NCBI RefSeq assembly: GCF_030866805.1 | Contig: NZ_CP133019.1 | Coordinates: forward strand, 1,612,001 to 1,676,000 | From: Microbacterium terrisoli | Lineage (GTDB): Bacteria; Actinomycetota; Actinomycetes; Actinomycetales; Microbacteriaceae | DNA length: 64,000 bases | Direction of reading: 5' to 3' | Part shown: piece by piece, positions 25,121-39,321 of the stretch | Numbering within the stretch: the first letter of the stretch is position 1 | How the letters are laid out: each line of letters starts with the position of its first letter | Notes under the pieces: model-generated | Database searches by the model: none | The model's input: the letters and a program-made list of their open reading frames with translations, nothing else | What the model was told of the DNA's origin: nothing | Position numbers and translations under genes: made by a program

Positions 25121-25168
25121 CTGACCGTGTGCGGCCCGCACCATAAGATGTCACATACCACGTGGTAT
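25121..25168 (+). promoter_or_regulatory. gntR promoter with overlapping operator (site 1)
   Basis: CTGACC (25121-25126) and TAAGAT (25144-25149) are 17 nt apart. The operator-like sequence at 25143-25161, ATAAGATGT-C-ACATACCAC, covers the -10; its right half fits the island consensus GTRRTATGT-N-ACATAYYAC fully and its left half in part. A perfect 14-bp palindrome, ATACCACGTGGTAT (25155-25168), overlaps the right half. The arrangement fits self-repression by the GntR protein. Confidence 0.55.
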
Positions 25169-25185
25169 CCGAGGAGGCGATGGTC

Positions 25186-25845
25186 GTGAACTCGAGCAGT
25201 GTCTTCGAGGTGGTGAGCCTGCGCGAGCAGGTCGAGCGCACGCTGTCGTCGCGGATCGTGACCGGCGAATTCGCAGCCGGCACCGTGCTGACGGTGCCGA
25301 CGCTGGCAGGCGAGTTCGGCGTGAGCGCGACCCCCGTGCGCGAGGCGATGCTCAATCTCGCCCGTCGCGGCTTCCTCACCCCGATCCGCAATCGCGGATT
25401 CCGCGTCACCGAGGTCTCACCAGACGAACTGGCAGCACTCGGCGAGGTGCGCGTGCTGCTGGAGGCGCCGCCCATGCGATGGTTGGCGGGGCACTTGTCC
25501 GAACCGGTTGTCGAGCAGCTGATGGTGTTCGCGGATCGCATCGTCGATGCCGCCGAACAGGCGCGCTTCGAGGACTATCTGGCCGCCGACACCGACTTCC
25601 ACCTGACGCTGCTGGAGCAGACCGGCAACACGCACCTGGTGCGGCTGGTGCGGGAGCTGCGACAGCAGACGCGACTGGTGGGGCTGGTCAGTCTCGCCGA
25701 GTCCGACGCGCTGGTGTCCACGTCGCTGGAGCATGCGGAGCTGATCGCGCTGCTGGTCGCCGGTCGCGGCGAAGACGCCGAGCAGCTCATGCATCGGCAC
25801 ATCGGCCACATCACGGGCCTGTGGAGCGGACGCCCAGAAGCGTGA
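25186..25845 (+). CDS. GntR-family (FCD-type) regulator of the hydroxyproline island
   Basis: DNA-binding regulator with an N-terminal winged helix (LREQVERTLSSRIVTGEF, VPTLAGEFGVSATPVREAMLNLARRGFL) and an all-helical FCD ligand domain. The FCD metal/effector pattern includes Asp in DTDFHLTLLEQTGN and His residues in HRHIGHITG near the C-terminus. It is 219 residues from GTG 25186, which has AGGAGG 8 nt upstream; ATG 25180 is only 2 nt from that site and is less likely. It opens the hydroxyproline island, and a palindromic site overlaps its own -10. I infer that it represses the island and is released by hydroxyproline or a pathway intermediate. Confidence 0.85.
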   Translation: MNSSSVFEVVSLREQVERTLSSRIVTGEFAAGTVLTVPTLAGEFGVSATPVREAMLNLARRGFLTPIRNRGFRVTEVSPDELAALGEVRVLLEAPPMRWLAGHLSEPVVEQLMVFADRIVDAAEQARFEDYLAADTDFHLTLLEQTGNTHLVRLVRELRQQTRLVGLVSLAESDALVSTSLEHAELIALLVAGRGEDAEQLMHRHIGHITGLWSGRPEA

Positions 25846-25915
25846 TCGTGTCCCGATCGTGATGCCGGCGACTTGTGGCGGTCGCTCAGTCGGGTAACAT
25901 TGCTCCGGTTGGTGC

Positions 25916-25934
25916 GTGATATGTCACGTACTAC
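25916..25934 (+). promoter_or_regulatory. Operator site 2, upstream of the transporter operon
   Basis: GTGATATGT-C-ACGTACTAC is nearly a perfect inverted repeat and matches the island consensus in all but one position. A -10-like TAACAT (25895-25900) lies 15 nt before it, so a bound repressor would block the start of elongation. A second small palindrome, ACTGCGCAGT, follows at 25933-25942. Confidence 0.6.
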
Positions 25935-25972
25935 TGCGCAGTCATGCAATGTCGCTGACAAGGAGTGTTCTC

Positions 25973-27157
25973 ATGCCACACGGTTCCGGACGCAGGATGC
26001 GTCTTCTGCAGATCGCTGCCGCGGCAGCGCTTGTGCTCGCCACGGCGGGCTGCTCGGGAGGTCTGGCAGGCGGGGGAGACAAGGCCTCGTCTGACGCCGG
26101 CCCGATCAAACTCGGTATGATCGCGCCGTTCTCGGGGAGTGAATCCGCATTCGGCGACTACATGAAGAACGGTGCGCAGCTCGCCGTCGACGAGCTCAAC
26201 GCCGACGGGGGGATCGACGGGCGCAAGCTCGAACTGGTCGTTGAAGACGGCGCGTGTGACGCGACCACCGCAGTCGCTGCCGCGAACAAGCTCGTCACCG
26301 AGGGGATCTCGGTTTCGGTCGGCGGATACTGCTCGGGGTCGACGCTGCCGACGCTGCCGATCTTCGATTCCGCGAAGATCCCGATGGTCATCCCTGCCGC
26401 CAACTCGAACAAGCTCGTCGACGCGGGCCTGCCGGGTGTGTTCCTCATCAACGGAACAGGCACCCAGCAGGCGCAGGCAGCCGTCAAGTACGCGCAGAAG
26501 ACGGGCATCAAGAGCGTGGCCACGGTCGATGACTCGACCGCCTACTCGGTGGACCTCGCCAAGTCGTTCGCAGAGCAGGCCAAGGCCGCAGGGCTGACTG
26601 TGCCGTTCACCTCGACGGTGACCCCCGGTGAGAGCGACTACTCGGCGGTGGCCACGCAGTTGGCCAAGCAGCAGCCCGAGATGGTCTATTGGACCGGCTA
26701 CTACCAAGAGGGCGGGCTGATCGTGCGTCAGGCCACCGACGCCGGGTTCAAGGGCGAGTTCCTCGTCGGCGACGGATCGGTCGACGCGAAGTTCGCACAG
26801 ATCGCCGGCAAGGGGTACACCGACAAGGTGCTGGGCACGTTCACGCAGACGCCTGACATGCTCACCGGTGCCGACACCTGGATCGCCGACTACAAGAAGC
26901 TCGCCGGTGCAGAGCCGGGCCCGTATTCGACGCAGTCCTATGACGCTGTGCGTGTCGCCGCGCAGGCGATCAAGGACGCCGGCGGCACCGACTTCGACAA
27001 GGTCGTGGCGGGGCTGAAGGGGCTGAAGGACTTCAAGACGTTCGCGGGGCCGCTGACGTTCACCGATCAGGGCACGCGCACCAGTGGCGGGTTCGTGATC
27101 GTGAAGATCGACCCGGCAACGGGCAACTTCGTCCTGGCGGACGACCTGCAGGGCTGA
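25973..27157 (+). CDS. ABC transporter substrate-binding lipoprotein (branched-chain amino acid type), probably for hydroxyproline
   Basis: Periplasmic-binding-type I lipoprotein, 394 residues. The signal peptide (MRLLQIAAAAALVLATAGC) ends in a lipobox with Cys27, followed by a Gly-rich linker. The mature part begins IKLGMIAPFSG and includes LAVDELNADGGIDGRKLEL, SGSTLPTLPIF and PGESDYSAVATQL, the LivJ/LivK fold. ATG 25973 has AAGGAG 7 nt upstream. It is the first gene of a run that continues through two permeases, two ATPases and a dehydrogenase. Substrate assignment to hydroxyproline is inferred from that context; a broad branched-chain or proline specificity cannot be excluded. Confidence 0.88.
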   Translation: MPHGSGRRMRLLQIAAAAALVLATAGCSGGLAGGGDKASSDAGPIKLGMIAPFSGSESAFGDYMKNGAQLAVDELNADGGIDGRKLELVVEDGACDATTAVAAANKLVTEGISVSVGGYCSGSTLPTLPIFDSAKIPMVIPAANSNKLVDAGLPGVFLINGTGTQQAQAAVKYAQKTGIKSVATVDDSTAYSVDLAKSFAEQAKAAGLTVPFTSTVTPGESDYSAVATQLAKQQPEMVYWTGYYQEGGLIVRQATDAGFKGEFLVGDGSVDAKFAQIAGKGYTDKVLGTFTQTPDMLTGADTWIADYKKLAGAEPGPYSTQSYDAVRVAAQAIKDAGGTDFDKVVAGLKGLKDFKTFAGPLTFTDQGTRTSGGFVIVKIDPATGNFVLADDLQG

Positions 27158-27237
27158 TCCGACCCGACGAGGCGACCGGCGCGTGTGCGCCCGGTCGCCC
27201 TGTCGAGACGGAGCGCCGTGGAACGGAGCCACCGCCC

Positions 27238-28128
27238 ATGATGCAACTTCTGTGGAACGGCCTGATCGTCGGCTCGTTCTATGCCCTCGTCGCGCTCGGC
27301 TACAGCATGGTGTACGGCATCATCAAGCTGCTGAACTTCGCACACGGCGACATCTACATGCTGGGCGCGTTCGTCGCGTTCTTCACCCTGAACTCGTTCG
27401 GGATCGAAGGATCCAGCTCCATTCCGCTGCTGCTGGTAATGCTGCTGCTGGCCATGGTCACCACGGGCCTGATCGGGGTCGGCATCGAGCGGGTGGCGTA
27501 TCGCCCGCTGCGCAAGAGCCCGCGCCTGGCGGTGCTGATCACGGCCATCGGCGTGTCATTCACGCTCGAGTACGGAGTGCGCTCTCTGTTCGGGGCGAAC
27601 CCGGAGGCCTTCCCGATCCGCTTCGCCTCGCACGGCTTCGAGCTGGCCGGCATGCGCATCACGGGGGCGCAGGTCACGCTGGTGATCATCGCGGCGGTTC
27701 TCATGCTCGTGCTCGCGCACGTCGTCGAGCGCACCCGCGCCGGCCGCGCCATGCGCGCGATCGCCCTCGACACGCAGGGGTCTCAGCTGATGGGGATCAA
27801 CGTCAACCGGACGATCGCGGTCGTCTTCTTCATCGGCTCGGCCCTGGCAGGTGCTGCCGGCGTGATGGCCGGCGCGTACTACGGCTCGATCGACTTCCTG
27901 ATGGGGTTCATCATCGGTCTGAAGGCCTTCACCGCCGCCGTGATCGGCGGAATCGGCAACCTGTACGGAGCAATGCTGGGCGGACTCGTGCTCGGCATGC
28001 TCGAATCGTTCGGCTCGGCATGGTTCGGCGGTGAATGGCGCGACGTGTTCTCGTTCGCCTTCCTCATCCTGTTCCTGACCTTCAAGCCCACCGGCCTGCT
28101 CGGTGCGCGGGTCGTTGAGAGGATGTGA
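27238..28128 (+). CDS. Branched-chain-type ABC transporter permease LivH
   Basis: Inner-membrane permease of the LivH family, 296 residues, with about eight hydrophobic segments. GLIVGSFYALVALGYSMVYGIIKLLNFAHGDIYM at the N-terminus and ALDTQGSQLMGINVNRTIAVVF plus KAFTAAVIGGIGNLYGAMLGG in the C-terminal half are the family hallmarks. It pairs with the next gene to form the channel. An 80-nt gap without features follows the binding-protein gene. It is probably on the same transcript. Confidence 0.92.
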   Translation: MMQLLWNGLIVGSFYALVALGYSMVYGIIKLLNFAHGDIYMLGAFVAFFTLNSFGIEGSSSIPLLLVMLLLAMVTTGLIGVGIERVAYRPLRKSPRLAVLITAIGVSFTLEYGVRSLFGANPEAFPIRFASHGFELAGMRITGAQVTLVIIAAVLMLVLAHVVERTRAGRAMRAIALDTQGSQLMGINVNRTIAVVFFIGSALAGAAGVMAGAYYGSIDFLMGFIIGLKAFTAAVIGGIGNLYGAMLGGLVLGMLESFGSAWFGGEWRDVFSFAFLILFLTFKPTGLLGARVVERM

Positions 28129-28130
28129 CC

Positions 28131-29339
28131 ATGTCGGCAACGCTGGACGCCGCGCTCAAGCACGTCACCCTTCGGGCACCGGCACCCGAATTCGAACGTC
28201 CTCGGCCGCCGCGCGGCATCCTGTCGTCGCAGACCGGATTCCTGCGCGCACTGGGAACGCTGTCCATCATCCTGGTTGCGGTGCTGCCGTTCCTGGACTC
28301 GTCGCGGTACCTGATCTCGATCGCCACGAGCGCGCTGATCTACATCATGCTCGCGATGGGGCTGAACGTCGTGGTCGGCTTCGCCGGCCTTCTCGATCTC
28401 GGCTACATCGCGTTCTTCGCCGTCGGCGCGTATGTCTCAGGCATCTTCACGACCACGTTCGGATGGCCGATGTGGGCGGCGCTGCCGGCGACGGTCCTGG
28501 CCTGCATCGTGGCCGGCATCATCATCGGGGCTCCGACCCTGCGCCTGCGCAGCGACTATCTCGCGATCGTGACGCTCGGCTTCGGTGAGATCATCCGCAT
28601 CACCGCGAACAATCTGGAGGTCACCGGCGGGCCCAGCGGCATCCACGGCATCCCGACGTGGACCTTCGGCGGCTGGAGTTTCGCCGACGGATTCACGGTG
28701 GGGAGCATCTTCTTCCCTCCGTACGTCGTCTTCTACTACTTCGTGGCGCTGGTGGTCATCGTCGTGGGCGTCGTCGGTGCCGGTCGACTCGGCAAAGGCA
28801 AGCTCGGTCGGGCATGGAAGGCGGTTCGCGACGACGAGGACGCGGCCGAGGCGATGGGGATCAACACCTACATCGCCAAGATCTCCGCCTACATCATCGG
28901 CGCGGTATGGGCGGGACTGGCCGGTCAGCTCATGGCGACGCAGCTGTCGGCGATCAGTCCGAACAGCTTCCAGTTCCTGTATTCGGTGCTGATCCTGATG
29001 GCCGTGGTCCTCGGCGGCATGGGATCCACCCCGGGCGTGATCATCGGTGCACTGTTCGTCTCGCTCGCGCCCGAGGTGCTGCGTGACTTCTCGGAGTGGC
29101 GCTACCTCATCTTCGGTCTGCTGCTGGTGGTCACGATGCTGTTCCGGCCCGCGGGGCTGTGGCCCGCCACCGCCGTGCTGCCGTGGCTCAAGCGCGGCAA
29201 GCCCGCGCCCCCGCCGCCGACAGACACCATCCGGGTGGTCGAGACGGATGCCGCCGCCGATCGGTTCGCGCACGATGATCCCGAGCTGATCGAGGATGAC
29301 GCCCCCGACCGCCCCGACCAGGACGGAGACCGCTCGTGA
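28131..29339 (+). CDS. Branched-chain-type ABC transporter permease LivM
   Basis: Second permease subunit, 402 residues. About nine hydrophobic segments include AMGLNVVVGFAGLLDLGYIAFFAVGAY and the cytoplasmic coupling region RAWKAVRDDEDAAEAMGIN. A polar tail of about 55 residues, Pro then Asp-rich, ends the protein. ATG 28131 has GAGAGGA 7 nt upstream; GTG 28125, overlapping the previous stop, is an alternative. The next gene overlaps by 4 nt. Confidence 0.92.
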   Translation: MSATLDAALKHVTLRAPAPEFERPRPPRGILSSQTGFLRALGTLSIILVAVLPFLDSSRYLISIATSALIYIMLAMGLNVVVGFAGLLDLGYIAFFAVGAYVSGIFTTTFGWPMWAALPATVLACIVAGIIIGAPTLRLRSDYLAIVTLGFGEIIRITANNLEVTGGPSGIHGIPTWTFGGWSFADGFTVGSIFFPPYVVFYYFVALVVIVVGVVGAGRLGKGKLGRAWKAVRDDEDAAEAMGINTYIAKISAYIIGAVWAGLAGQLMATQLSAISPNSFQFLYSVLILMAVVLGGMGSTPGVIIGALFVSLAPEVLRDFSEWRYLIFGLLLVVTMLFRPAGLWPATAVLPWLKRGKPAPPPPTDTIRVVETDAAADRFAHDDPELIEDDAPDRPDQDGDRS

Positions 29340-30184
29340 GCAGCCTGCTGGAAGTGTCCGATCTGCGACTGCAGTTCGGTGGTGTGAAGGCCGTCGACGG
29401 GCTGAGCTTCGAGGTGCGCGAAGGCGAGATCCTCGCTGTGATCGGACCGAACGGCGCGGGAAAGACCAGCGCCTTCAACTGCATCTCGGGCTTCTATCTG
29501 CCGACGTCGGGATCTGTCGTGTTCGACGGGAAGCGCATCGTTCGACCGGTTCCCGATGCGCTGCGTGCGATGAGGCTGGCGCCGCTGCTGCAGAGCTTCG
29601 GCTTCTATCGCGTGCTGCCCTCGCGGGTCACCAAGTGGGGAATGGCCCGCACGTTCCAGAACCTGCGCCTGTTCCGCGAACTCAGCGTGCTGGAGAACGT
29701 GAAGACCGCGATGCACGCGAATCTGCGTGAGGGCTTCTGGTCGACCCTGCTGCATCTGCCCCGATACCGTCGGGCAGAGGCCGCGTGCACACGCGAGGCG
29801 CAGGGCTGGCTCGATTTCGTCGGATACGAGAACGACGAGAACCTGTATGTCACGCAGCTGCCGTACGGCGAGCAGCGTCGGGTCGAGATCGCCCGAGCTC
29901 TGGCGACCAGCCCTCGACTGCTGCTGCTGGACGAACCGGCGGCGGGGCTGAACTACAGCGAGAAGCAGGCTCTCATGGCTCTGATCCGCCGCATCCAGCA
30001 GATGGGGGTGGCGGTCGTGCTCATCGAGCACGACATGGGCCTGATCATGGAGTTGGCCGAGCGCATCGTCGTGCTCAACTACGGCAAGGAGATCGCCGAC
30101 GGCACGCCCGACCAGATCAAGAACGATCCGGTGGTGATCGAGGCCTATCTGGGCGTCGACGACGACGAGGAGGAGGCGCGATGA
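29336..30184 (+). CDS. Branched-chain-type ABC transporter ATPase LivG
   Basis: Nucleotide-binding subunit, 282 residues, of the high-affinity amino-acid ABC transporter. Walker A is GPNGAGKTS near residue 42, the signature region reads QLPYGEQRRVEIARAL, Walker B is LLLLDEPAAGLN and the switch His lies in IEHDMGLIM. An insertion between Walker A and the Q-loop, rich in Arg (residues about 70-100), makes it slightly longer than average for LivG. GTG 29336 overlaps the livM stop as GTGA, and its own stop overlaps the livF start as ATGA. Confidence 0.94.
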   Translation: MSSLLEVSDLRLQFGGVKAVDGLSFEVREGEILAVIGPNGAGKTSAFNCISGFYLPTSGSVVFDGKRIVRPVPDALRAMRLAPLLQSFGFYRVLPSRVTKWGMARTFQNLRLFRELSVLENVKTAMHANLREGFWSTLLHLPRYRRAEAACTREAQGWLDFVGYENDENLYVTQLPYGEQRRVEIARALATSPRLLLLDEPAAGLNYSEKQALMALIRRIQQMGVAVVLIEHDMGLIMELAERIVVLNYGKEIADGTPDQIKNDPVVIEAYLGVDDDEEEAR

Positions 30185-30891
30185 GCCGGCTGGAGGTGGC
30201 GGGCGTCGACGTCTATTACGGACGTGTGCACGCGCTGCGCGAACTGAGCTTCGTCGTCGACGAGGGCGAGATCGTCTGCCTGCTCGGCAACAACGGTGCC
30301 GGCAAGTCGACGACGATGAACATGCTCTCGGGCCTGGTGCGGCCCAAAGCCGGGACGGTGAGCTGGGACGGACTGGACCTTGCCACGGCCAAGCCCTGGA
30401 CGATCGTGTCGGCCGGTCTTGTGCAGGTGCCGGAGGGGCGTCGCATCTTCTCGACGATGACCGTGCACGAGAACCTGCTTCTGGGCAGCCACACGGTGAA
30501 GGACCAGAAGGCGATCGCCGGTCGTATCGACGACGTCTATCAGCTGATGCCGCGGCTGGCCGAGCGCCGCAAGCAGCAGGGTGGCACGCTGTCCGGCGGC
30601 GAGCAGCAGATGCTCGCGATCGGACGTGCGCTGGTCACCGGGCCCAGGCTGCTGCTGCTGGACGAGCCGTCGATGGGCCTTGCCCCGCTCGTGGTCAAAC
30701 AGGTGATGCAGATCATCTCGACCGTCAACGAGCGGGGGACCACCGTGCTCCTGGTCGAGCAGAATGCGCGTGCGGCGTTGAAGATCGCCGACCGAGCGTA
30801 TGTGGTGGACACGGGACGGACCACGGCGGAGGGCCCGGCGGTGGAGCTCGCGCGCGACCCGCGCATCATCGAGGCGTATCTCGGCGGCTGA
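30181..30891 (+). CDS. Branched-chain-type ABC transporter ATPase LivF
   Basis: Second nucleotide-binding subunit, 236 residues. Walker A LGNNGAGKST, the signature LSGGEQQMLAIGRAL, Walker B LLLLDEPSMGLAP and the switch VEQNARAAL are all intact. Together with the preceding four genes it completes a five-component importer. The dehydrogenase genes start 33 nt downstream on the same strand, so uptake and first oxidation are likely cotranscribed. Confidence 0.94.
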   Translation: MSRLEVAGVDVYYGRVHALRELSFVVDEGEIVCLLGNNGAGKSTTMNMLSGLVRPKAGTVSWDGLDLATAKPWTIVSAGLVQVPEGRRIFSTMTVHENLLLGSHTVKDQKAIAGRIDDVYQLMPRLAERRKQQGGTLSGGEQQMLAIGRALVTGPRLLLLDEPSMGLAPLVVKQVMQIISTVNERGTTVLLVEQNARAALKIADRAYVVDTGRTTAEGPAVELARDPRIIEAYLGG

Positions 30892-30923
30892 TCGGCGGGA
30901 TAACGGGGGAGAGAGGAGCGCAG

Positions 30924-32081
30924 ATGCGGATCGTCGTGGTCGGAGCCGGTGCCGTGGGCGCCGCCAGCGCACTGGCCCTGACCGAAGCCGGTGCCGACGT
31001 CGTGGTCGTGGACCGGACAGGTGTGGCAGGCGAGACCTCGAGTCGCTGCGAGGGCAACATCCTCGTCTCCGACAAGGGGCCGGGCCCCGAAGCGCAGCTG
31101 GCGATCGTGGCCAACCGCGTCTGGCGCGAGTGGGCACAGCGGCTGGACGCCGAGCGGCGCCCCGGGCAGCCGACGACGGAGTTCGATGCCAAAGGCGGTG
31201 TCGTCGCGACCTTCCCCGGTGGGGAAGACGGACTGCTGTCGTTCGCCGCCGGGCAGCGCGGCATCGGCGTGCACGCAGAGGTCGTCGACGCGCAGCGCCT
31301 GCGCGAGTTCGAGCCGTCGCTCTCGCCGGAGGTGGCCTGCGGCGTGTGGTACCCCGATGATGCGCAGGTGCAGCCGAGTCTGGCCACGCAGGCGATGATG
31401 TCGCGCGCGGTGGCGCTGGGCGCGGGCCTGCGTCGCGAAGAGGTGGTCGGCGTGCGCATCGCGCGCGGTCGCATCCGGGCGGTGCGCACCGACCGCGGCG
31501 AGATCGAGGCGGACGCCGTGGTCAACTGCGCGGGTCCCTGGGCGGGCGAGGCGGCGCAGCGACTCGGCGCGCACCTGCCGATCCTGCCGCGACGGGGGAC
31601 GATCATCGTGACCACGCCCATGCCCCAGCGCATCTTCCACAAGGTCTACGACGCCGATTATGTCGGAGCGGTCGCCTCCGGTGACGCCGATCTGCAGACC
31701 TCGACCGTGGTCGAGTCGACGCCCGCCGGCACGGTGCTGATCGGCTCGAGCCGCGAGCGCGTGGGCTTCTCGACCGACAACACGCTGCCGGCGCTGGCCG
31801 AGATCGCAGCCAAGGCCGTGCGGCTCTTCCCGTTCTTGAGCCAGACGATGGTGCTGCGCACCTATGCCGGCTTCCGTCCGTATGCGCCCGATCATCTGCC
31901 GGTGATCGGGGAGGATGCCGCGGTCCCGGGACTGTTCCATGCGGCCGGTCACGAAGGAGCCGGCATCGGGTTGGCGCCGGCCACCGGCCTGCTCATCGCG
32001 CACGCGGTGCTGGGCACCGTCGCCCCCGTCGATCCCACGCCGTTCCTGCCGAGCAGGTCGACGCTCGCGGTGGCGGCATGA
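30924..32081 (+). CDS. FAD-dependent oxidoreductase (DAO family), probable beta subunit of D-hydroxyproline dehydrogenase
   Basis: DAO-fold flavoprotein, 385 residues, with the dinucleotide motif VVGAGAVGAASALALTEAGADVVVVD at the N-terminus, SRCEGNIL next to the flavin, and the C-terminal flavin motif YAGFRPYAPDHLPVIGE then AAGHEGAGIGLAPATG. It is followed with 4-nt overlaps by an 80-residue [2Fe-2S] protein and a second flavoprotein. This trio is the layout of the heteromeric D-hydroxyproline dehydrogenases of pseudomonads, which oxidise cis-4-hydroxy-D-proline to pyrroline-4-hydroxy-2-carboxylate. GGAG precedes the ATG. Sarcosine or D-proline are possible alternative substrates. Confidence 0.85.
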   Translation: MRIVVVGAGAVGAASALALTEAGADVVVVDRTGVAGETSSRCEGNILVSDKGPGPEAQLAIVANRVWREWAQRLDAERRPGQPTTEFDAKGGVVATFPGGEDGLLSFAAGQRGIGVHAEVVDAQRLREFEPSLSPEVACGVWYPDDAQVQPSLATQAMMSRAVALGAGLRREEVVGVRIARGRIRAVRTDRGEIEADAVVNCAGPWAGEAAQRLGAHLPILPRRGTIIVTTPMPQRIFHKVYDADYVGAVASGDADLQTSTVVESTPAGTVLIGSSRERVGFSTDNTLPALAEIAAKAVRLFPFLSQTMVLRTYAGFRPYAPDHLPVIGEDAAVPGLFHAAGHEGAGIGLAPATGLLIAHAVLGTVAPVDPTPFLPSRSTLAVAA

Positions 32082-32320
32082 GTGTCATGATCCGGGTCGA
32101 CGGCGAAGAACTGCACGGACGGGACGGGCAGACGATCGCCGGCGTGCTGCTGGCGTCGGGGCAGCGCAGCTGGCGTACGGCTGCCGGCGCGCCGCGGGGA
32201 GTGTTCTGCGGCATCGGGGTGTGTCAGGACTGCCTGGTCACCGTCAACGGCGTCGCGGGCGTGCGCGCCTGCCAGCGCACCGCCGTCGACGGCGACGTCG
32301 TCGAGAAGGAGTCGCGATGA
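32078..32320 (+). CDS. [2Fe-2S] ferredoxin-like small subunit of the hydroxyproline dehydrogenase
   Basis: An 80-residue protein of the sarcosine-oxidase-alpha/HcnA-like N-terminal type. Four Cys in the order CGIGVCQDC then ACQ form a plant-type [2Fe-2S] site. It has no membrane segment. Its ATG overlaps the stop of the DAO subunit and its stop overlaps the next start (both ATGA), which suggests stoichiometric production. It should carry electrons between the two flavoprotein subunits. Confidence 0.88.
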   Translation: MSVMIRVDGEELHGRDGQTIAGVLLASGQRSWRTAAGAPRGVFCGIGVCQDCLVTVNGVAGVRACQRTAVDGDVVEKESR

Positions 32321-33705
32321 CGACTGTGGCGATCCTGGGCGCGGGCCCGGCCGGACTGGCCGCGGCGCAGTCTGCGCTGGCCGCCGGCGCAGACGTGGTC
32401 GTCGTGGACGAAGCAGAGCGGATCGGCGGGCAGTTCTGGCGCCACCACGACACGCTCACCGACCGGCGCATGCAGCACCAGTGGGCGCGGTTCGAACGGC
32501 TGCGCGCACTGCTGGACCCGGCAGGGACGGCCGCATCGGCGGGGCGGGTCGTCGTGCATTCGTCGGCCAGCGTGTGGCGCATCGAAACCGGCGCCGGCAT
32601 CCGCGTGCACGCACTGGTGGGACCCGCCGACGCAGCTGCGCGGCAGGGGCTGACGATCCAGGCCGACGCGCTCGTGATCGCCACCGGCGCGCATGACCGT
32701 GCGCTGCCGGTGCCCGGGTGGACGCTGCCCGGTGTCGTCACCGCGGGGGCTGCGCAGGCGATCGCCAAGCGCGACGGCGTGGCGATCGGGCGGCGCACCG
32801 TCGTGGCAGGAGCCGGGCCGTTCCTGCTCCCGGTGGCCTCGAGTCTCGCTCTGGCAGGTGGCAGCGTCGTCGAGGTCGTCGAGGCGACACGTGCGGCGGC
32901 TCTGGTGGCCGGCTGGGCGCGCGCACCGTGGCGGCTGGCCGGCAGCGCGCCGGCGAAGGCACCGGAGCTGTGGGACTACGTGTCCGGCCTCGTGCGCCGT
33001 CGCACGCCGTACCGCACCGGCAGTGCGGTCACCCGCATCCACGGCCGCGGTCGGGTCGAGGCCGCCACGATCCAACGCATCGACGGTGACTGGCGCCCCA
33101 TTGTGGGCACCGAGCGCCTCGTGGAGTGCGACGCCGTCGCCCTCGGGCACGGGTTCACCCCGCGGTTGGAAGCGGCTATCCAGGCGGGCTGTGACATCCG
33201 TCCCGACCGATTCGTGGCCGTCGACCAGCAGCAGGCCACCAGCGTTGCAGGTGTGTATGCCGCGGGGGAGGTCACCGGTATCGCCGGGGCCGACGCGGCG
33301 CTGGCCGAGGGGGCGGTCGCCGGCTTCGCGGCGGCGGGCGGCGACCCGACAGATGCCCGCATCCGACCCGCGCGGCTCGTGCGGCGCCGTATGCACGCCT
33401 TCGCCGAGCGACTGAAGACCCACGACATCCGACCCGGCTGGAAGGCATGGCTCGACGACGACACCGTCATCTGCCGCTGCGAGACCGTGACCCGCGCTCA
33501 GATCGCCGAGTACGCAGGCGCATCGAGCCGCGGACTGCGGTTGGCCACGCGCGCGGGCCTCGGGGCGTGCCAAGGGCGGACGTGCGGACGCACCGTCGAG
33601 GAGCTCACGGGAGTGCGGATCGGCTACGACGCGCGGCCGGTGCTCGGATCGGTGCGCGTCGGTGAACTCGCAGCCGTCCACGCCGAACGCGTCGACGCAG
33701 GCTGA
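32317..33705 (+). CDS. FAD/NAD(P)-binding subunit with C-terminal BFD-like iron-sulfur domain, hydroxyproline dehydrogenase alpha
   Basis: A 462-residue two-dinucleotide-binding flavoprotein. GAGPAGLAAAQSALAAGADVVVVDE lies at the N-terminus, GGQFWRHHD follows, IATGAHDRALPVPGW occurs near residue 125, and a second Rossmann region (VAGAGPFLLPVASSLALAGG) near 165. The C-terminal 80 residues have Cys in VICRCETV and GACQGRTCG, a BFD-like [2Fe-2S] site. This is the HcnB/SoxA-like large subunit of amine/imino-acid dehydrogenases. It closes the transporter-dehydrogenase transcript; a new promoter with an operator follows in the 148-nt gap. Confidence 0.87.
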   Translation: MTTVAILGAGPAGLAAAQSALAAGADVVVVDEAERIGGQFWRHHDTLTDRRMQHQWARFERLRALLDPAGTAASAGRVVVHSSASVWRIETGAGIRVHALVGPADAAARQGLTIQADALVIATGAHDRALPVPGWTLPGVVTAGAAQAIAKRDGVAIGRRTVVAGAGPFLLPVASSLALAGGSVVEVVEATRAAALVAGWARAPWRLAGSAPAKAPELWDYVSGLVRRRTPYRTGSAVTRIHGRGRVEAATIQRIDGDWRPIVGTERLVECDAVALGHGFTPRLEAAIQAGCDIRPDRFVAVDQQQATSVAGVYAAGEVTGIAGADAALAEGAVAGFAAAGGDPTDARIRPARLVRRRMHAFAERLKTHDIRPGWKAWLDDDTVICRCETVTRAQIAEYAGASSRGLRLATRAGLGACQGRTCGRTVEELTGVRIGYDARPVLGSVRVGELAAVHAERVDAG

Positions 33706-33722
33706 CCCCGACGATCGACCAC

Positions 33723-33763
33723 TTGTGAGCACGCGCACCGAGGGGTAATATGTTACATATTAC
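33723..33763 (+). promoter_or_regulatory. Promoter of the deaminase-epimerase-dehydrogenase block with operator site 3
   Basis: TTGTGA (33723-33728) and TAATAT (33746-33751) are exactly 17 nt apart. A perfect 19-nt palindrome, GTAATATGT-T-ACATATTAC (33745-33763), covers the -10 box. It is the best copy of the island operator and defines the consensus. Confidence 0.72.
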
Positions 33764-33853
33764 TTGGGCCGGGCCGGCGTCACTGCTGACCCGAGACCGC
33801 ACTGAGGACCACGGCCGCTCGCTGCCGGCGAAGACAACCAGAATGGAAGCACC

Positions 33854-34786
33854 ATGACCACTCGCACGATGGATCTGGGCGGCGTCGTCGTCGCCACCGC
33901 CCTCGCATTCAAAGAAGACGCCGCCGCGCCGGCGGGCCTCGCCGTGGACTATGACAAGTTCGGAGAGCACGTCGACTTCCTGATGTCGAACGGATGCCGC
34001 GGAGTCGGCCCCAACGGCTCTCTGGGCGAGTACTCGTCACTGACCGACGACGAGCGCCGCAGGGTCATCCAGGTCGCCGTCGACGCGGTGGACGGACGGG
34101 GCATCGTGATCGCCGGCGCACACGGGATCGGCAGCCATCAGGCTCGGCAGTGGGCCGAGTACGCGGCCGAGGACGGCGCCGACGGGGTGCTGCTGCTGCC
34201 CCCGATCGTCTACCGTGCGAACGAGCGCGAAGTGCTCGCACACTATGAAGAGGTCGCGAAAGTCGGCATGCCGATCATGGCCTACAACAACCCGTTCGAC
34301 ACGAAGGTCGACCTGACGCCTGCGCTGGTCGCCCAGATCGCGCAGATTCCCGAGGTCGTGGCGATCAAGGAGTTCTCGGGCGACGTGCGCCGCGTGTATG
34401 AGATCAAAGAGCTGTGCGACATCGACATCATCGCCGGTGCCGACGACGTGCTGCTCGAGCTGATGATCAACGGTGCGGTCGGCTGGTTCGCCGGCTACCC
34501 GAACGCTTTCCCGCGCGAGGCGGTCGAGCTGTACACCCTGCTCGCCGACGGCCGCTGGCAGGAGGCGAAGTCGCTCTACGAGCAGCTGGTCACCGTCTTC
34601 CGGTGGGATTCGCGCACCGAGTTCGTCCAGGCGATCAAGCTGTCGATGGACATCTGCGGCAACTCGTACGGCGGGCCGACCCGTCCGCCGCGCGGCCCGC
34701 TGACCGCCGAACAGCGCGCACAGGTCACCGCCGACACCGAGCGGGCTCTGGCGGCCCTCGCGGCACGATCCGCGGCGGTCGCCTGA
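33854..34786 (+). CDS. DapA-family enzyme, probable 1-pyrroline-4-hydroxy-2-carboxylate deaminase
   Basis: Class I aldolase of the dihydrodipicolinate synthase family, 310 residues, forming a TIM barrel. The Schiff-base lysine is Lys172 in AIKEFSGD, and the catalytic Tyr144 lies in MAYNNPFD. The substrate-binding loop reads GPNGSLGEYSSL instead of the GTTGE of true DapA, and no lysine-biosynthesis genes are near. Placed between the dehydrogenase and the epimerase, it fits the deaminase that converts pyrroline-4-hydroxy-2-carboxylate to 2-oxoglutarate semialdehyde and ammonia. It has its own promoter with the strongest operator. GGAAG precedes the ATG. Confidence 0.85.
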   Translation: MTTRTMDLGGVVVATALAFKEDAAAPAGLAVDYDKFGEHVDFLMSNGCRGVGPNGSLGEYSSLTDDERRRVIQVAVDAVDGRGIVIAGAHGIGSHQARQWAEYAAEDGADGVLLLPPIVYRANEREVLAHYEEVAKVGMPIMAYNNPFDTKVDLTPALVAQIAQIPEVVAIKEFSGDVRRVYEIKELCDIDIIAGADDVLLELMINGAVGWFAGYPNAFPREAVELYTLLADGRWQEAKSLYEQLVTVFRWDSRTEFVQAIKLSMDICGNSYGGPTRPPRGPLTAEQRAQVTADTERALAALAARSAAVA

Positions 34787-35787
34787 TGCGTGCGCGCCGG
34801 GTGATCTCGGCCGTCGACTCGCACACCGAGGGCATGCCGACGCGCGTGGTCACCGGCGGGGTCGGCCCGATCCCCGGCGCGACCATGAACGACCGCCGGC
34901 TGTACGCGATGGAGCACCTCGACGGGTTGCGCGGTCTGCTCATGAACGAGCCTCGCGGACACGCGTCGATGTCGGGCGCCCTGCTGCAGCCGCCCGCGCG
35001 CGAGGACGCCGACTGGGGCGTGGTCTTCATCGAGGCCAGCGGCTTTCTGCCCATGTGCGGTCACGGCACGATCGGGGTCGCGACGGTGCTCGTGGAGACA
35101 GGCATGGTGGCCGTCACCGAGCCGGTGACCGAGATCCGACTGGACGTCCCGGCGGGGCTGGTCATCGCGCGCGTCGAGGTCGAGGACGGCCGGGCACGGC
35201 GCGTGACGATCGAGAACGTGCCCAGTTTCGTCGAGCGGCTGGATGCCACGATCGAAGTCCCCGGTCACGGCACCGTGCCGTACTCGATCGCGTTCGGAGG
35301 CAACTTCTACGCGCTCGTCGACCTGGACGACGTCGGGCTGCCGTTCGATCGCGCCCGGCAAGACGACATCCTGCGCTGCGGCCTGGCGATCATGGACGCC
35401 ATCAACACGCAGCGACCTCCGCACCACCCGGTGGTGGGCGGCACCGACCACGTGCACCACGTCGAGTTCATCGCGCCGGGGTCCAACGCTGTGCGTTCGC
35501 GGCACGCGATGGCGATCCACCCCGGGTGGTTCGACCGCTCGCCCTGCGGCACGGGAACCAGCGCCCGCATGGCGGAGCTGCACGCACGCGGGCAGCTCGC
35601 CCTGCACACCGACTTCGTGAACGAATCATTCATCGGCACGGAGTTCACCGGGCGGCTGGTGGGCGAGACCGCCGTGGCGGGCATTCCGGCCGTCATCCCC
35701 ACCCTCACCGGGCGTGCGTGGGTGACCGGGCTCGGACAATACTTCCTGGACGACACGGATCCCTTCCCCGAAGGCTTCGTGTTCTGA
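34786..35787 (+). CDS. 4-hydroxyproline 2-epimerase (proline racemase family)
   Basis: Cofactor-independent epimerase, 333 residues, expected to convert trans-4-hydroxy-L-proline to cis-4-hydroxy-D-proline, the first catabolic step. Both catalytic cysteines are present: Cys91 in MCGHGTIG and Cys254 in RSPCGTGTSAR. The N-terminus has the DSHTEGMPTRVV block, and GTDHVHHVEF lies before the second Cys. Start and previous stop overlap by 1 nt (TGATG). Proline racemase activity is possible, but the neighbouring D-hydroxyproline dehydrogenase, deaminase and semialdehyde dehydrogenase favour the hydroxyproline assignment. Confidence 0.86.
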   Translation: MRARRVISAVDSHTEGMPTRVVTGGVGPIPGATMNDRRLYAMEHLDGLRGLLMNEPRGHASMSGALLQPPAREDADWGVVFIEASGFLPMCGHGTIGVATVLVETGMVAVTEPVTEIRLDVPAGLVIARVEVEDGRARRVTIENVPSFVERLDATIEVPGHGTVPYSIAFGGNFYALVDLDDVGLPFDRARQDDILRCGLAIMDAINTQRPPHHPVVGGTDHVHHVEFIAPGSNAVRSRHAMAIHPGWFDRSPCGTGTSARMAELHARGQLALHTDFVNESFIGTEFTGRLVGETAVAGIPAVIPTLTGRAWVTGLGQYFLDDTDPFPEGFVF

Positions 35788-35810
35788 CCCGCACCGATGC
35801 AAGGAGCAGC

Positions 35811-37286
35811 ATGACCGACATCGACCCGATAGCACAGCGAGCCGCCGAGGCTGCAGCACCGTACGCGGCGGTCGCGCCCGCCCGCCGAGCGGCTGCGCTG
35901 GTCTCGGTCGCCGACGCGCTGGATGCCGCAGCCTCGGACCTGATCTGCGTCGCGATGGGCGAGACCGGGCTGTCTGAAGCGCGATTGACCGGCGAAGTGC
36001 GGCGCACCTCGGGGCAGCTGCGGCTGTTCGCCGAGGTCGTCGTCGACGGCGGCTACCTCGACGCGCGCATCGACGAGGCCGACCCCGACTACGCGATCGG
36101 GGCCCGGCCCGACGTTCGCCGCGTGCTCGAACCGGTCGGGCCGGTCCTGAACTTCGCGGCCTCGAACTTTCCGTTCGCATTCTCGGTTGCAGGCGGCGAC
36201 TCGGCTGCGGCGCTGGCGGCCGGGTGTCCGTTGATCGTCAAGGCTCACTCGGGGCACCCCGAGCTTTCGCGCCGCACCGCAGCGGTGGTGGCTGCCGCCC
36301 TCGCCGACGCCGGCATGCCCGACGGAGTGTTCCAGCTCGTGGAGGGCCAGCAGGCAGGCGTGGATCTGCTCGAGGACGACCGCATCCGCGCCGGGGCGTT
36401 CACCGGATCGACACACGTGGGACGGATGCTGGCCGACATCGCCGCCGCCCGCCCGCGCCCGATCCCGTTCTTCGGCGAGCTGGGCAGCGTCAACCCGGTG
36501 TATGTGACGGCAGCTGCCGCGGCATCCGAAGCCGACCTGGTCAGCGGGTTCGTCGCCTCGGTCTCCGGCTCTGCCGGACAGCTGTGCACCAAGCCCGGAT
36601 TCCTGTTCGTGCCGCAGGGGGCAGACCTCGGAGATGTGAGGGCGGCGGTCGCCGACATCGAGGCCCACCGGCTGCTGAACCCCGGAATCGGCCGGGGCTA
36701 TGCGCAGCGACGCGATGCGGTGCTGGGAGCCCCCGGAGTGCGCGTACTCGCAGAAGGAACGGTGCGCGAGGAGAACGGGCAGCGCTTCGCGACGCCCACC
36801 GTCGTCGAAGTCGATCTCGAGACGCTGCGTGCGCACCGCGACGAGCTGCTGGACGAGACGTTCGGTCCGCTGTCGATCATCGTGCGGTACCCGGATGCTG
36901 CGGCTCTGCCGGACGTGCACCGCGACCTGTTCCCGGGAAACCTCACCGCGACCCTGCACGCCACCGACGCCGACGCCGGCGACGTCCGCGATCTGGTGGA
37001 CGCGCTGGCGGCCACGAGCGGACGGGTGCTGTTCGGCGGATGGCCGACCGGTGTGTCGGTGACTTCGGCGATGCAGCACGGCGGGCCGTTCCCGGCCACC
37101 ACAACCGATGCGACCAGTGTGGGCACCGCGGCCATCACGCGCTTTCTGCGCGGGGTGTCGTACCAGAACGCCCCGCAGTCGCTGCTGCCGCCGGCGCTGC
37201 GCGACGACAATCCCTGGGATGTGCCTCAGCATCGACGTGCGGCGGGTGCATCCCAGCGTTGGGGGAGCCTGACCGGCGCCATCTGA
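35811..37286 (+). CDS. Aldehyde dehydrogenase, probable 2-oxoglutarate semialdehyde dehydrogenase
   Basis: NAD(P)-dependent aldehyde dehydrogenase, 491 residues. LNFAASNFPFAFS lies in the cofactor site, KAHSGHPELSRR holds the conserved Lys, FTGSTHVGRML forms the Rossmann turn, and GELGS holds the general-base Glu. The catalytic Cys259 is in GQLCTKPG. This divergent pattern is that of the 2-oxoglutarate semialdehyde dehydrogenases that end hydroxyproline and pentose pathways in 2-oxoglutarate. AAGGAG lies 4 nt before ATG 35811. It is the last plus-strand gene of the island and is convergent with the second racemase-family gene, 18 nt away, without a visible terminator. Confidence 0.87.
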   Translation: MTDIDPIAQRAAEAAAPYAAVAPARRAAALVSVADALDAAASDLICVAMGETGLSEARLTGEVRRTSGQLRLFAEVVVDGGYLDARIDEADPDYAIGARPDVRRVLEPVGPVLNFAASNFPFAFSVAGGDSAAALAAGCPLIVKAHSGHPELSRRTAAVVAAALADAGMPDGVFQLVEGQQAGVDLLEDDRIRAGAFTGSTHVGRMLADIAAARPRPIPFFGELGSVNPVYVTAAAAASEADLVSGFVASVSGSAGQLCTKPGFLFVPQGADLGDVRAAVADIEAHRLLNPGIGRGYAQRRDAVLGAPGVRVLAEGTVREENGQRFATPTVVEVDLETLRAHRDELLDETFGPLSIIVRYPDAAALPDVHRDLFPGNLTATLHATDADAGDVRDLVDALAATSGRVLFGGWPTGVSVTSAMQHGGPFPATTTDATSVGTAAITRFLRGVSYQNAPQSLLPPALRDDNPWDVPQHRRAAGASQRWGSLTGAI

Positions 37287-37304
37287 TCGCAACGGGAACG
37301 TCGC

Positions 37305-38288
37305 TCAGCGCAGGCTGAATCCCTGCGGCAGAGGATCGCCCTCGTCCAGTTCGAAAGTGCTGGCACCCACCCGATGCGCCATCCCGGTGACCTCGGGAAT
37401 CACTCCGTGCGCGGTGTGGGCGGCCACGCGCGCCGTGAAGCGCGTGCCGATGAGGGAGTCGTGGGTGAGCTGCTCGTGGTCGGCGAGCTGTCCCGACGCC
37501 GACAGCAGCGCGACCCGCGCGGCCGTGCCCGACCCGCACGGACTGCGATCGACCTCGCCGTCGGCGAACACCGTGACGTTGCGCTGCCAGGGTCCGGTCT
37601 CGGTGCGTCCGAGATCGTCCACGAGGATCGTGCCGTACACGCCCGACAGTCGGTCATCGTCCAGTCGGGCAGCCGGGTGCTCGTCCAGCGCCCACTTGAT
37701 CTCCCGCCCGATGCGGATCAGCTCCGCCGTGTCGTCGGGGCGCACGGTCAGGCCGACCGACGCTGCCGGCAGCGTCGCGTACACCGCGCCGCCGAAGATG
37801 AGATCCACCGACACGGTGCCGCGGCTGGTGGGCAGCAGGATGCCGCGGGCCAGCACGCGCGATTCGACATTGCGGAACACGACCGACCTCGTGCGTCCAC
37901 CCGATCGTTGCACCCGGGCCTGCACACGGCCGCTGGGCACGTCGATCGTCACGATCGCCTCGCCGTCATCGACCCGTGAGACTCGACCCGTGCGCACGGC
38001 CCACGCGCCCAGCGCGATGGTGCCGTGCCCGCACGCGGTCGAGAAGCCGTCCTTGTGCCAGAACAGCACTCCGAAGTCGGCGCCGTCGTCATCGGGCGGA
38101 GTGATGAATCCGCCGTACATGTCGTCGTGGCCCCGTGGCTCGAGGCACAGGAATCTTCGCACGTCGTCGGCGGGACCCGTCAGGGCGTTCACGCGCCGCG
38201 AGGCCACATCGACACCCTCTGTGGGAACGCCCTCCACGATGCGGAACGGCTCGCCGGCGGTGTGCCAGTCCTCGGTGCTCCACCGCAT
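37305..38288 (-). CDS. Second proline racemase-family protein (candidate trans-3-hydroxyproline dehydratase or epimerase)
   Basis: A 327-residue paralogue of the epimerase, clearly diverged from it. It has Cys86 in [11 protein letters not shown] and Cys251 in [11 protein letters not shown], so both catalytic cysteines of racemases and epimerases are kept. Known trans-3-hydroxy-L-proline dehydratases usually carry Thr at the second position, so the residues alone do not support a dehydratase. The adjacent upstream gene, however, encodes an ornithine-cyclodeaminase-family reductase, the usual partner of that dehydratase. AAGGAGG lies 5 nt before the ATG. The pair probably forms one transcript from the promoter at 39.29 kb. 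Confidence 0.8.
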
Positions 38289-38319
38289 CGCGGCCTCCTT
38301 CAGACGTGATGATCGTGTT

Positions 38320-38343
38320 GGTCGTGCGGTCGTGCGGTCGTGC
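38320..38343. repeat. Three tandem copies of GGTCGTGC between the two minus-strand island genes
   Basis: Three perfect 8-bp units fill part of the 59-nt spacer between the reductase stop and the racemase-family ribosome site. There is no obvious role; slippage could change the spacing. Confidence 0.75.
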
Positions 38344-38347
38344 GAAC

Positions 38348-39286
38348 TCAGAGCCGGTCCATGACCAGCCGGGCGACGGCGAGGTCCTGCCAGCCCATGC
38401 CGCAGGTCTTGATCACGCGCGGCCGATCTCTGGCCGCGACGAAGCCCTCGGCGAACACCTCGCGGAACTCGACCACCTCATCGGTCGCGAGCGCTCCGTC
38501 GGCGACGGCGAGGATGACGTCGCCGGCCTCGGTGCGGGCGACGTGCGCGGTCTCCACGACCACCTGGGCCCGCCCCAGCAGTGCCGCGGGCAGTTCGCGG
38601 CGTGCCGGGTCGTGCGAGCCGACCGCGATCACCGTGGCCTGGTCGCCGACGGAGGCCGCTTCGAACAGCGGCTCACCGGCGGTCGTGGCGCACACGATCA
38701 GGTCGCTGCCGGCGAGGTCGTCGATGGTGCCGGGGACGATTTCGGCATCGGGTGCCAGTTCGCGCGCGGCAGCACAGGCGCGCCGGGTGCGTACGGGGTC
38801 GCGGCCGATCATGCGCACGTGCTGGATTGGGCGGATGGCGGCGAGGGCGCCCACGTGGGCCACCCCCTGCGGCCCGGTTCCGAAGATGACCGCGGTCGCG
38901 GCATCCGGGTCCGCCAGCACGTCGGCTGCGGCGGCGCTGACCGCCGGCGTGCGCAGGGTCGTCAGTGTCGTGCCGTCCAGCACCGCGACAGGGGTGAGCG
39001 TCGCCGCGTCGATGACCACGTAGAGCGCCTGGATGCGTGGCACCGTGCGACCCGGCACGTCGGGGGAGACCGTTGCCAGCTTCTGACCCACGACGCCTCG
39101 CAGCGCCGATGGCATCAGCAGGAGCTGGCCCGTGGGCACGTCGACGATGGAGCGCGCGGGGTCGTCGGAGGGGTCGAAGCCGCCGCGCACGACCGATGCG
39201 ATGGCATCGATGGCCTCGCGCAGGGACACGAGGCGCAGCAGTTGATCGCCGTCGATCAGCCGAAGGGAGGAGACGAGTCCGGGCAT
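38348..39286 (-). CDS. Ornithine cyclodeaminase-family protein, candidate pyrroline-2-carboxylate reductase
   Basis: NAD(P)-binding protein of the OCD/mu-crystallin family, 312 residues. The Rossmann motif is [19 protein letters not shown] near residue 125, preceded by [22 protein letters not shown]; the Arg-rich N-terminal barrel contains GQLLLMPS. In hydroxyproline clusters this family reduces 1-pyrroline-2-carboxylate to L-proline. ATG 39286 is leaderless, with TAGGAT 6 nt upstream on this strand; a GTG two codons earlier would overlap the expected transcription start. The upstream operator (site 4) covers the -35 and spacer. True ornithine cyclodeaminase activity cannot be excluded. Confidence 0.82.
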
Positions 39287-39292
39287 GTCCAC

Positions 39293-39321
39293 ATCCTACG
39301 AGGTAATGCATCACGTAGCAC
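39293..39321 (-). promoter_or_regulatory. Promoter of the minus-strand island genes with operator site 4
   Basis: On the minus strand TAGGAT (39293-39298) is 6 nt before the reductase ATG. The plus-strand sequence 39303-39321, GTAATGCAT-C-ACGTAGCAC, is a weaker version of the island palindrome (about 6 of 9 and 7 of 9 half-site matches). It lies over the -35 and spacer. Confidence 0.5.

Follow-up and report, generated by a model that had tools for sequence, protein, structure and literature searches.

Conserved palindromic operators of a predicted HypR-family regulon in a hydroxyproline island of Microbacterium terrisoli

Introduction

Hydroxyproline utilization in Streptomyces coelicolor is controlled by HypR (SCO6294), a member of the GntR/FadR subfamily with GntR and FCD domains, which acts as a repressor of L-hydroxyproline utilization (PMC6608401). 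HypR governs itself and the genes for DAO, Fer2, oxidoreductase, DHDPS and epimerase proteins, with weaker control of its own promoter, and its regulon includes a collagenase. Its footprint is a 21-base-pair (bp) stretch holding TACAATGTCAC before hypR, with TGCAATGTCAC before SCO6289, and the symmetry of the site is called 'not clear' (PMC6608401). In Sinorhizobium meliloti and other proteobacterial HypR regulons, a GntR protein likewise represses 4-hydroxyproline uptake and catabolism and autoregulation is common; some lineages add ornithine-cyclodeaminase genes and collagenases, and the transporters differ from those described below (excerpts of PMC5343134). The HypO dehydrogenase of S. meliloti and the three-subunit enzyme of S. 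coelicolor are unrelated (PMC6608401). An analogous pathway in Pseudomonas aeruginosa is controlled by LhpR, but this protein is an AraC-family activator (PMC6608401). In this study, four palindromes that precede genes of a hydroxyproline island, among them a GntR/FCD regulator gene, were analyzed in a 64,000-nucleotide stretch of Microbacterium terrisoli (NZ_CP133019.1, positions 1,612,001 to 1,676,000; hereafter the window).

Judged from the sequence, the local GntR/FCD protein is very probably a HypR-family repressor of this island. A single GntR regulon across four units, as an earlier note on this DNA had proposed, is supported by site conservation, genome-wide rarity and likeness to the HypR family, and the proposal appears right in substance. 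The type of system is already known, and the prediction is a solid one; new here are the description of the operators as 19-bp imperfect palindromes, a probable fifth operator in trans and an operator placement that shifts between genomes. What the sequence itself shows is the sites, how well they are conserved, their occurrence together with the regulator and the promoter positions at two units.

Four operators in the window

The putative operators (O1 to O4) are as follows.
25143 to 25161, plus strand: O1, before the GntR gene; ATAAGATGTCACATACCAC; overlaps a weak -10-like TAAGAT; 23.0 bits.
25916 to 25934, plus strand: O2, before livJ of the transporter operon; GTGATATGTCACGTACTAC; partial copy offset by 7 bp at 25909; 27.9 bits.
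33745 to 33763, plus strand: O3, perfect palindrome before the deaminase block; 33.4 bits.
39303 to 39321, minus strand: O4, before the reductase gene; 21.5 bits.

Direct inspection found the four palindromes with the coordinates and letters that the earlier note had given, and the perfect symmetry that it described for O3 was read as 9/9 arm pairs (6/9 for O2 and 5/9 each for O1 and O4). In that note all four fit one consensus to varying degree: relative to GTRRTATGTNACATAYYAC, O3 has no mismatch, O2 one and O1 two, whereas O4 is weak, with five. When up to three mismatches were allowed, the consensus matched three places in the window, compared with a mean of 0.01 after shuffling, and only those same three island places in the entire genome of 3,625,519 bases.

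A symmetric weight matrix was then built from relatives only, seeded with 25 sites (at most three mismatches) from 14 same-genus relatives and iterated to 77 matches, which include 7-bp-offset copies and some stray matches; no window site was included. This matrix ranked O3, O2, O1 and O4 first to fourth in the 64 kb. The next scores (17.6, 12.9, 7.3 and 6.7) are overlaps of those sites, and the best unrelated position reached 6.0. An independent-base model sets the expectation for sites of at least 21.5 bits at 0.17 in a whole genome and 0.0006 in 14.2 kb. The consensus scan and this expectation agree that the motif does not occur at random frequency genome-wide.

Conservation and co-occurrence with the regulator

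The regulator was searched for in 198 same-genus genomes, that of M. terrisoli included, by scoring, in each genome, no more than the 15 top candidates of a first look. Matches at E <= 1e-20 were found in at least 41 genomes; 15 were at least 67% identical and two more were 50 to 51% identical. Regions of up to 40 kb were fetched around 20 genomes (28 kb for G128 and 20 kb for G030), and 23 loci were compared: the window, 14 same-genus relatives and eight named loci (five Agromyces, two Microbacterium and one actinomycete metagenome-assembled genome, MAG), three named loci that repeat relatives being left out. The sites are conserved in these orthologous islands. A site above 11 bits precedes gntR in 22/23 loci, livJ in 14/14, ocd (the reductase gene) in 14/16, dao (a dehydrogenase gene) in 14/21 and dhdps (the deaminase gene) in 11/21, and dao, dhdps or both carry one in 21/21; 13 other islands have the homolog of O4 at the corresponding gene. 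The window has a dhdps site and no dao site, and its closest relative (G191) shows the reverse, so that control is maintained through altered wiring. G036 has a weak dao site (14.3 bits), and its dhdps site stands at a second copy, 55% identical. Near position 1730576 of G036:C1 (L059), beyond the reductase gene, a second regulator–deaminase pair has a site of its own. In 20 of 22 loci, no site of the genome scores lower than the one before gntR; the exceptions are the window, where the reductase site is weaker, and G030. This pattern fits the weaker autorepression reported for HypR.

A site with at most two mismatches occurs in 18/198 genomes, against 1/198 for a control pattern, and in 13 of the 17 genomes with a regulator at least 50% identical, against five of the 181 others, two of which have island remnants. 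In G069 (L154) the island and its operators remain, while gntR is largely gone and livJ lacks its start, a natural loss of the regulator; in G162 a contig-end reductase gene carries a site. Sites in G029, G040 and G176 were treated as chance matches, there being no island genes near them (G029 has only a 28%-identical livG-type ATPase nearby). A 30-bit site in G110 (L159:5268; G110:C2:150268) lies about 64 bp before a gene for a PF00496 peptide-type ATP-binding cassette (ABC) substrate-binding protein and may mark an extra target; this and another extra G110 site, before a DUF4126 gene, are single cases and are not claimed.

Beyond these relatives, the 80 best loci were taken from a scan of named genomes, and 12 (Microbacterium, Agromyces and MAG L084) were removed to leave 68 distant loci. 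Here the bases upstream of island genes, 8.5% of the total, hold 60 of the 78 matches of at least 20 bits, and 44 of the 68 loci have such a site, in altered operator forms; the half-site GTGCAATGT or GTACAATGT is found in Streptomyces, Arthrobacter and others. Sixty column-permuted matrices gave a mean of 0.05 upstream matches and at most one. Covariation of winged-helix residues with the half-site (V39/A39, R63/E63 and F65/L65 tracking RRTATGT versus GCAATGT) was also considered and left unused, being confounded by phylogeny and leaving 22 of 80 loci unclassified.

Position of the operators relative to promoters

A strict promoter scan found no promoter at the operators; relaxed promoter boxes are present at all four. 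O3 lies over a -10-like TAATAT (33746 to 33751) with a -35-like TTGTGA (33723 to 33728), and O4 is 4 bp from a -10-like TAGGAT (39298 to 39293) with a leaderless-type start. A TTG at -35 spacing for a -10 in the left arm accompanies the deaminase gene in 5/11 cases (0.0 in a displaced control), livJ in 5/14 (0.07), dao in 1/14 and the regulator gene in none of 22 sites (displaced controls 0.0 to 0.13 over the four genes). After the site, the arrangement TANNNT-N5-7-start is found at ocd in 14/14 cases and at the other genes in 0/61, which points to a leaderless-type ocd promoter. At the deaminase and reductase units, the operators therefore overlap promoter elements or lie directly beside them. 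The earlier note had set every palindrome on or beside a promoter: this stands for those two units, is uncertain for the transporter and is poorly supported for the regulator.

The distance between the end of the ocd operator and its -10-like box is either 3 to 5 or 11 bp, which looks like slippage of the register by one half-site. Some operators have a third half-site, displaced by 7 bp (25909 and 25150 in the window; also in G128, G136, G106 and G117). It is a minority feature: 12% of the flanks of 51 sites match at least five of seven positions at this offset, against 3% in the background.

These positions bear on two other explanations. The palindromes might be chance or shared A+T-rich promoter sequence, given that a sequence usable as a -10, TAATAT, may fall in the left arm and that O4 diverges so far from the consensus; this is extremely improbable in view of the distant loci, with their 60 upstream matches against 0.05 for permuted matrices, and of the ocd site, which lies outside the conserved TANNNT box. 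Alternatively, the same protein might activate some units, for example the transporter, whose site possibly lies past the -10. FadR-type regulators are able to act both ways, and one promoter fell upon hypR deletion, an effect that the authors thought indirect (PMC6608401). Activation is nevertheless unlikely, since the deaminase and reductase sites lie where a bound protein should block the polymerase and HypR represses its pathway operon (PMC6608401).

Relationship to HypR

The window regulator passes the Pfam cut-offs for an N-terminal winged helix (PF00392) and a C-terminal FCD domain (PF07729). Its residues E95, D137, H141, E184, H185 and H207 are invariant in 15 aligned regulator sequences, its own included, and contain the predicted FCD metal-binding Asp/His set (D137, H141, H185 and H207). 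The Glu/Asp/His pocket positions of HypR correspond to these with an offset of one, and a Streptomyces protein (L126) has E96, D138, H142, E185, H186 and H208, as reported for HypR (PMC6608401). The domains of SCO6289 to SCO6293 match window genes, the half-site ATGTCAC is common to both sets of operators, and each regulon has a peptide-degrading enzyme, a collagenase for HypR and, probably, a predicted X-Pro peptidase here. The two systems differ in regulator identity (about 45%, measured on L126 and not on SCO6294), in clade and in the outer half-site, which is GTRRTATGT here and GTGCAATGT or GTACAATGT in the HypR type; furthermore, the window cluster adds a Liv-type transporter, an aldehyde dehydrogenase, a reductase and a second racemase-family gene.

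L126 and a Kitasatospora locus (L145) carry exactly TACAATGTCAC and TGCAATGTCAC at the same genes as in S. coelicolor. Across 43 HypR-type sites from 38 loci, symmetry with the left arm was scored at the seven positions of the right arm that the published 11-mer leaves out; they agree in 50.5% (0.33 to 0.79 by position), compared with 22.0% for random right arms (standard deviation 2.4, maximum 29.2, 300 draws), a comparison that is not a probability because the real sites are related. By this sequence comparison, HypR-type sites are 19-bp imperfect palindromes.

Several observations qualify the proposed regulon or weigh against it. A reversed control pattern also has three matches in the genome, so that clustering within 8.6 kb is the unlikely feature. 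O4 would fail the consensus test alone and is carried by the relatives-only matrix and its homologous sites, and this matrix, seeded with the consensus of the earlier note, is blind to the window letters and not to the idea. Among the 17 regulator-bearing genomes, four (G187, G042, G030 and G112) have no site with at most two mismatches; the first three carry matrix sites of at least 22 bits, and the 40 kb region of G112, scanned with the consensus, has none at up to three mismatches. No upstream site of at least 20 bits was found in 24 of the 68 distant loci. Enzyme families fall below the NCBIfam cut-offs shown, L-hydroxyproline, D-hydroxyproline and L-proline failed to release HypR in vitro (PMC6608401), and a literature search turned up neither binding nor expression data from this genus. 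In the tree, which was built without SCO6294 itself, the window protein falls in an 18-row clade apart from a well-supported 53-row clade with HypR-like Streptomyces rows. Finally, L126 shows 45% identity to the window protein (209 residues) and nearly as much (44%, 179 residues) to the second GntR/FCD protein of the M. terrisoli genome. The sequences place the window regulator and HypR in the same family, as possible one-to-one orthologs.

This paralog, 43% identical to the window regulator over 173 residues, raises the question of whether another transcription factor binds the palindromes. That is very unlikely: the paralog adjoins an unrelated amino-acid ABC transporter and has no similar palindrome in the 300 bases upstream, grounds on which it was set aside as the binder, while the sites follow the island regulator across genomes and precede its own gene almost without exception.

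A probable fifth operator in trans

A looser pattern matches four places in the M. terrisoli genome without mismatch, namely three island sites and G000:C1:418999-419017, outside the window; O1 has one mismatch. The new site scores 22.4 bits, has a second copy offset by 7 bp (418999-419024; L163:8999-9024) and stands 44 bp before a gene whose product has Peptidase_S15 and PepX_C domains and, by eye, a signal-peptide-like start. It is probably a fifth operator, and the gene probably encodes a secreted Xaa-Pro dipeptidyl-peptidase; the four units of the earlier note are thus kept and the extent of the regulon is corrected by one probable site.

The peptidase is found at E <= 1e-60 in 5/198 genomes (M. 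terrisoli, G112, G128, G136 and G162), all of which also have the regulator or a remnant of the island. Its promoter carries a site of 21.4 bits in G136, 15.8 in G162 and 12.9 in G128, where only the C-terminal part of the peptidase was matched (L185, G128:C39). No promoter site was found for the 44%-identical peptidase of G112 (best score 8.9) or for weaker S15 homologs in G000 and G136 (35 to 36% identical). Between 0.06 and 0.17 chance sites of the fifth-operator score are expected per genome, and the case for this operator therefore rests mainly on conservation. The peptidase gene of G136 is split between two frames (L183/L186, G136:C1). A search for work uniting hydroxyproline, Xaa-Pro dipeptidyl and regulon found nothing among the papers available.

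Island genes and predicted pathway

The island genes are as follows.
25180 to 25845, plus strand: GntR/FCD regulator, HypR family; Pfam GntR and FCD; start maybe GTG 25186, 8 nt after GAGGAGG.
25973 to 27157, plus strand: livJ-type substrate-binding protein; Peripla_BP_6.
27238 to 30891, plus strand: livHMGF, together an amino-acid ABC transporter; named, as are the next four open frames, by operon layout.
27238 to 28128, plus strand: livH.
28125 to 29339, plus strand: livM.
29336 to 30184, plus strand: livG.
30181 to 30891, plus strand: livF.
30924 to 32081, plus strand: dao, FAD oxidoreductase, predicted D-hydroxyproline dehydrogenase beta-type subunit; DAO domain; as SCO6289.
32078 to 32320, plus strand: fer2, 2Fe-2S subunit; Fer2_4; as SCO6290.
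32317 to 33705, plus strand: nox, FAD/NAD oxidoreductase alpha-type subunit; Pyr_redox_2, with Fer2_BFD below cut-off; as SCO6291.
33854 to 34786, plus strand: DHDPS family, predicted pyrroline-4-hydroxy-2-carboxylate deaminase; PF00701; as SCO6292.
34786 to 35787, plus strand: proline-racemase family, predicted 4-hydroxyproline 2-epimerase; PF05544; Cys-Cys by eye; below NCBIfam cut-offs; as SCO6293.
35811 to 37286, plus strand: aldehyde dehydrogenase, predicted 2-oxoglutarate semialdehyde dehydrogenase; PF00171; substrate assigned from context.
37305 to 38288, minus strand: second proline-racemase-family protein; PF05544; Cys-Cys by eye.
38348 to 39292, minus strand: OCD/mu-crystallin family, predicted pyrroline-2-carboxylate reductase; PF02423; best NCBIfam PRK06141, below cut-off.

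Since the NCBIfam cut-offs are unreached, substrates were assigned from family and neighborhood. Cys at both catalytic positions marks racemases and epimerases, and Cys-Thr marks type I trans-3-hydroxyproline dehydratases (excerpts of PMC4364671). The second racemase-family protein, whose best solved-chain match is 6r76, named Proline racemase, may therefore be a racemase or epimerase rather than a trans-3-hydroxyproline dehydratase, owing to its Cys-Cys pattern.

Proposed mechanism and inducer

We infer binding, repression, the dimer, the inducer and the enzyme substrates from the sequence. A GntR/FCD dimer would bind the 19-bp operator (consensus GTRRTATGT-N-ACATAYYAC) at its own promoter, the transporter–dehydrogenase operon, the deaminase–epimerase–aldehyde dehydrogenase block and the divergent reductase unit, where it would exclude RNA polymerase. 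During hydroxyproline metabolism, a pathway compound would occupy the metal-containing FCD pocket and release the dimer, by which uptake and catabolism to 2-oxoglutarate would be switched on; the further operator would probably bring the Xaa-Pro dipeptidyl-peptidase, elsewhere on the chromosome, under shared control.

The HypR authors suspect a downstream metabolite as the inducer (PMC6608401). As a tentative suggestion, the HypR-type inducer could be the cyclic imine shared by the two regulon branches, pyrroline-4-hydroxy-2-carboxylate or pyrroline-2-carboxylate, on the FCD metal, and not hydroxyproline. Although doubtful, this would explain why hydroxyproline and proline leave HypR bound in vitro (PMC6608401), as well as the conserved operator at the predicted pyrroline-2-carboxylate reductase and second racemase-family genes, which are not needed for 4-hydroxyproline breakdown.

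Implications

The sites give a testable definition of the hydroxyproline regulon in Microbacterium-type bacteria, and they present HypR-type operators as imperfect palindromes, a point left open by the Streptomyces work. An X-Pro peptidase is probably tied to this regulon, and imine intermediates become candidate inducers; if an imine is indeed the inducer, the regulon would span the path from peptide trimming by the Xaa-Pro dipeptidyl-peptidase to 2-oxoglutarate.

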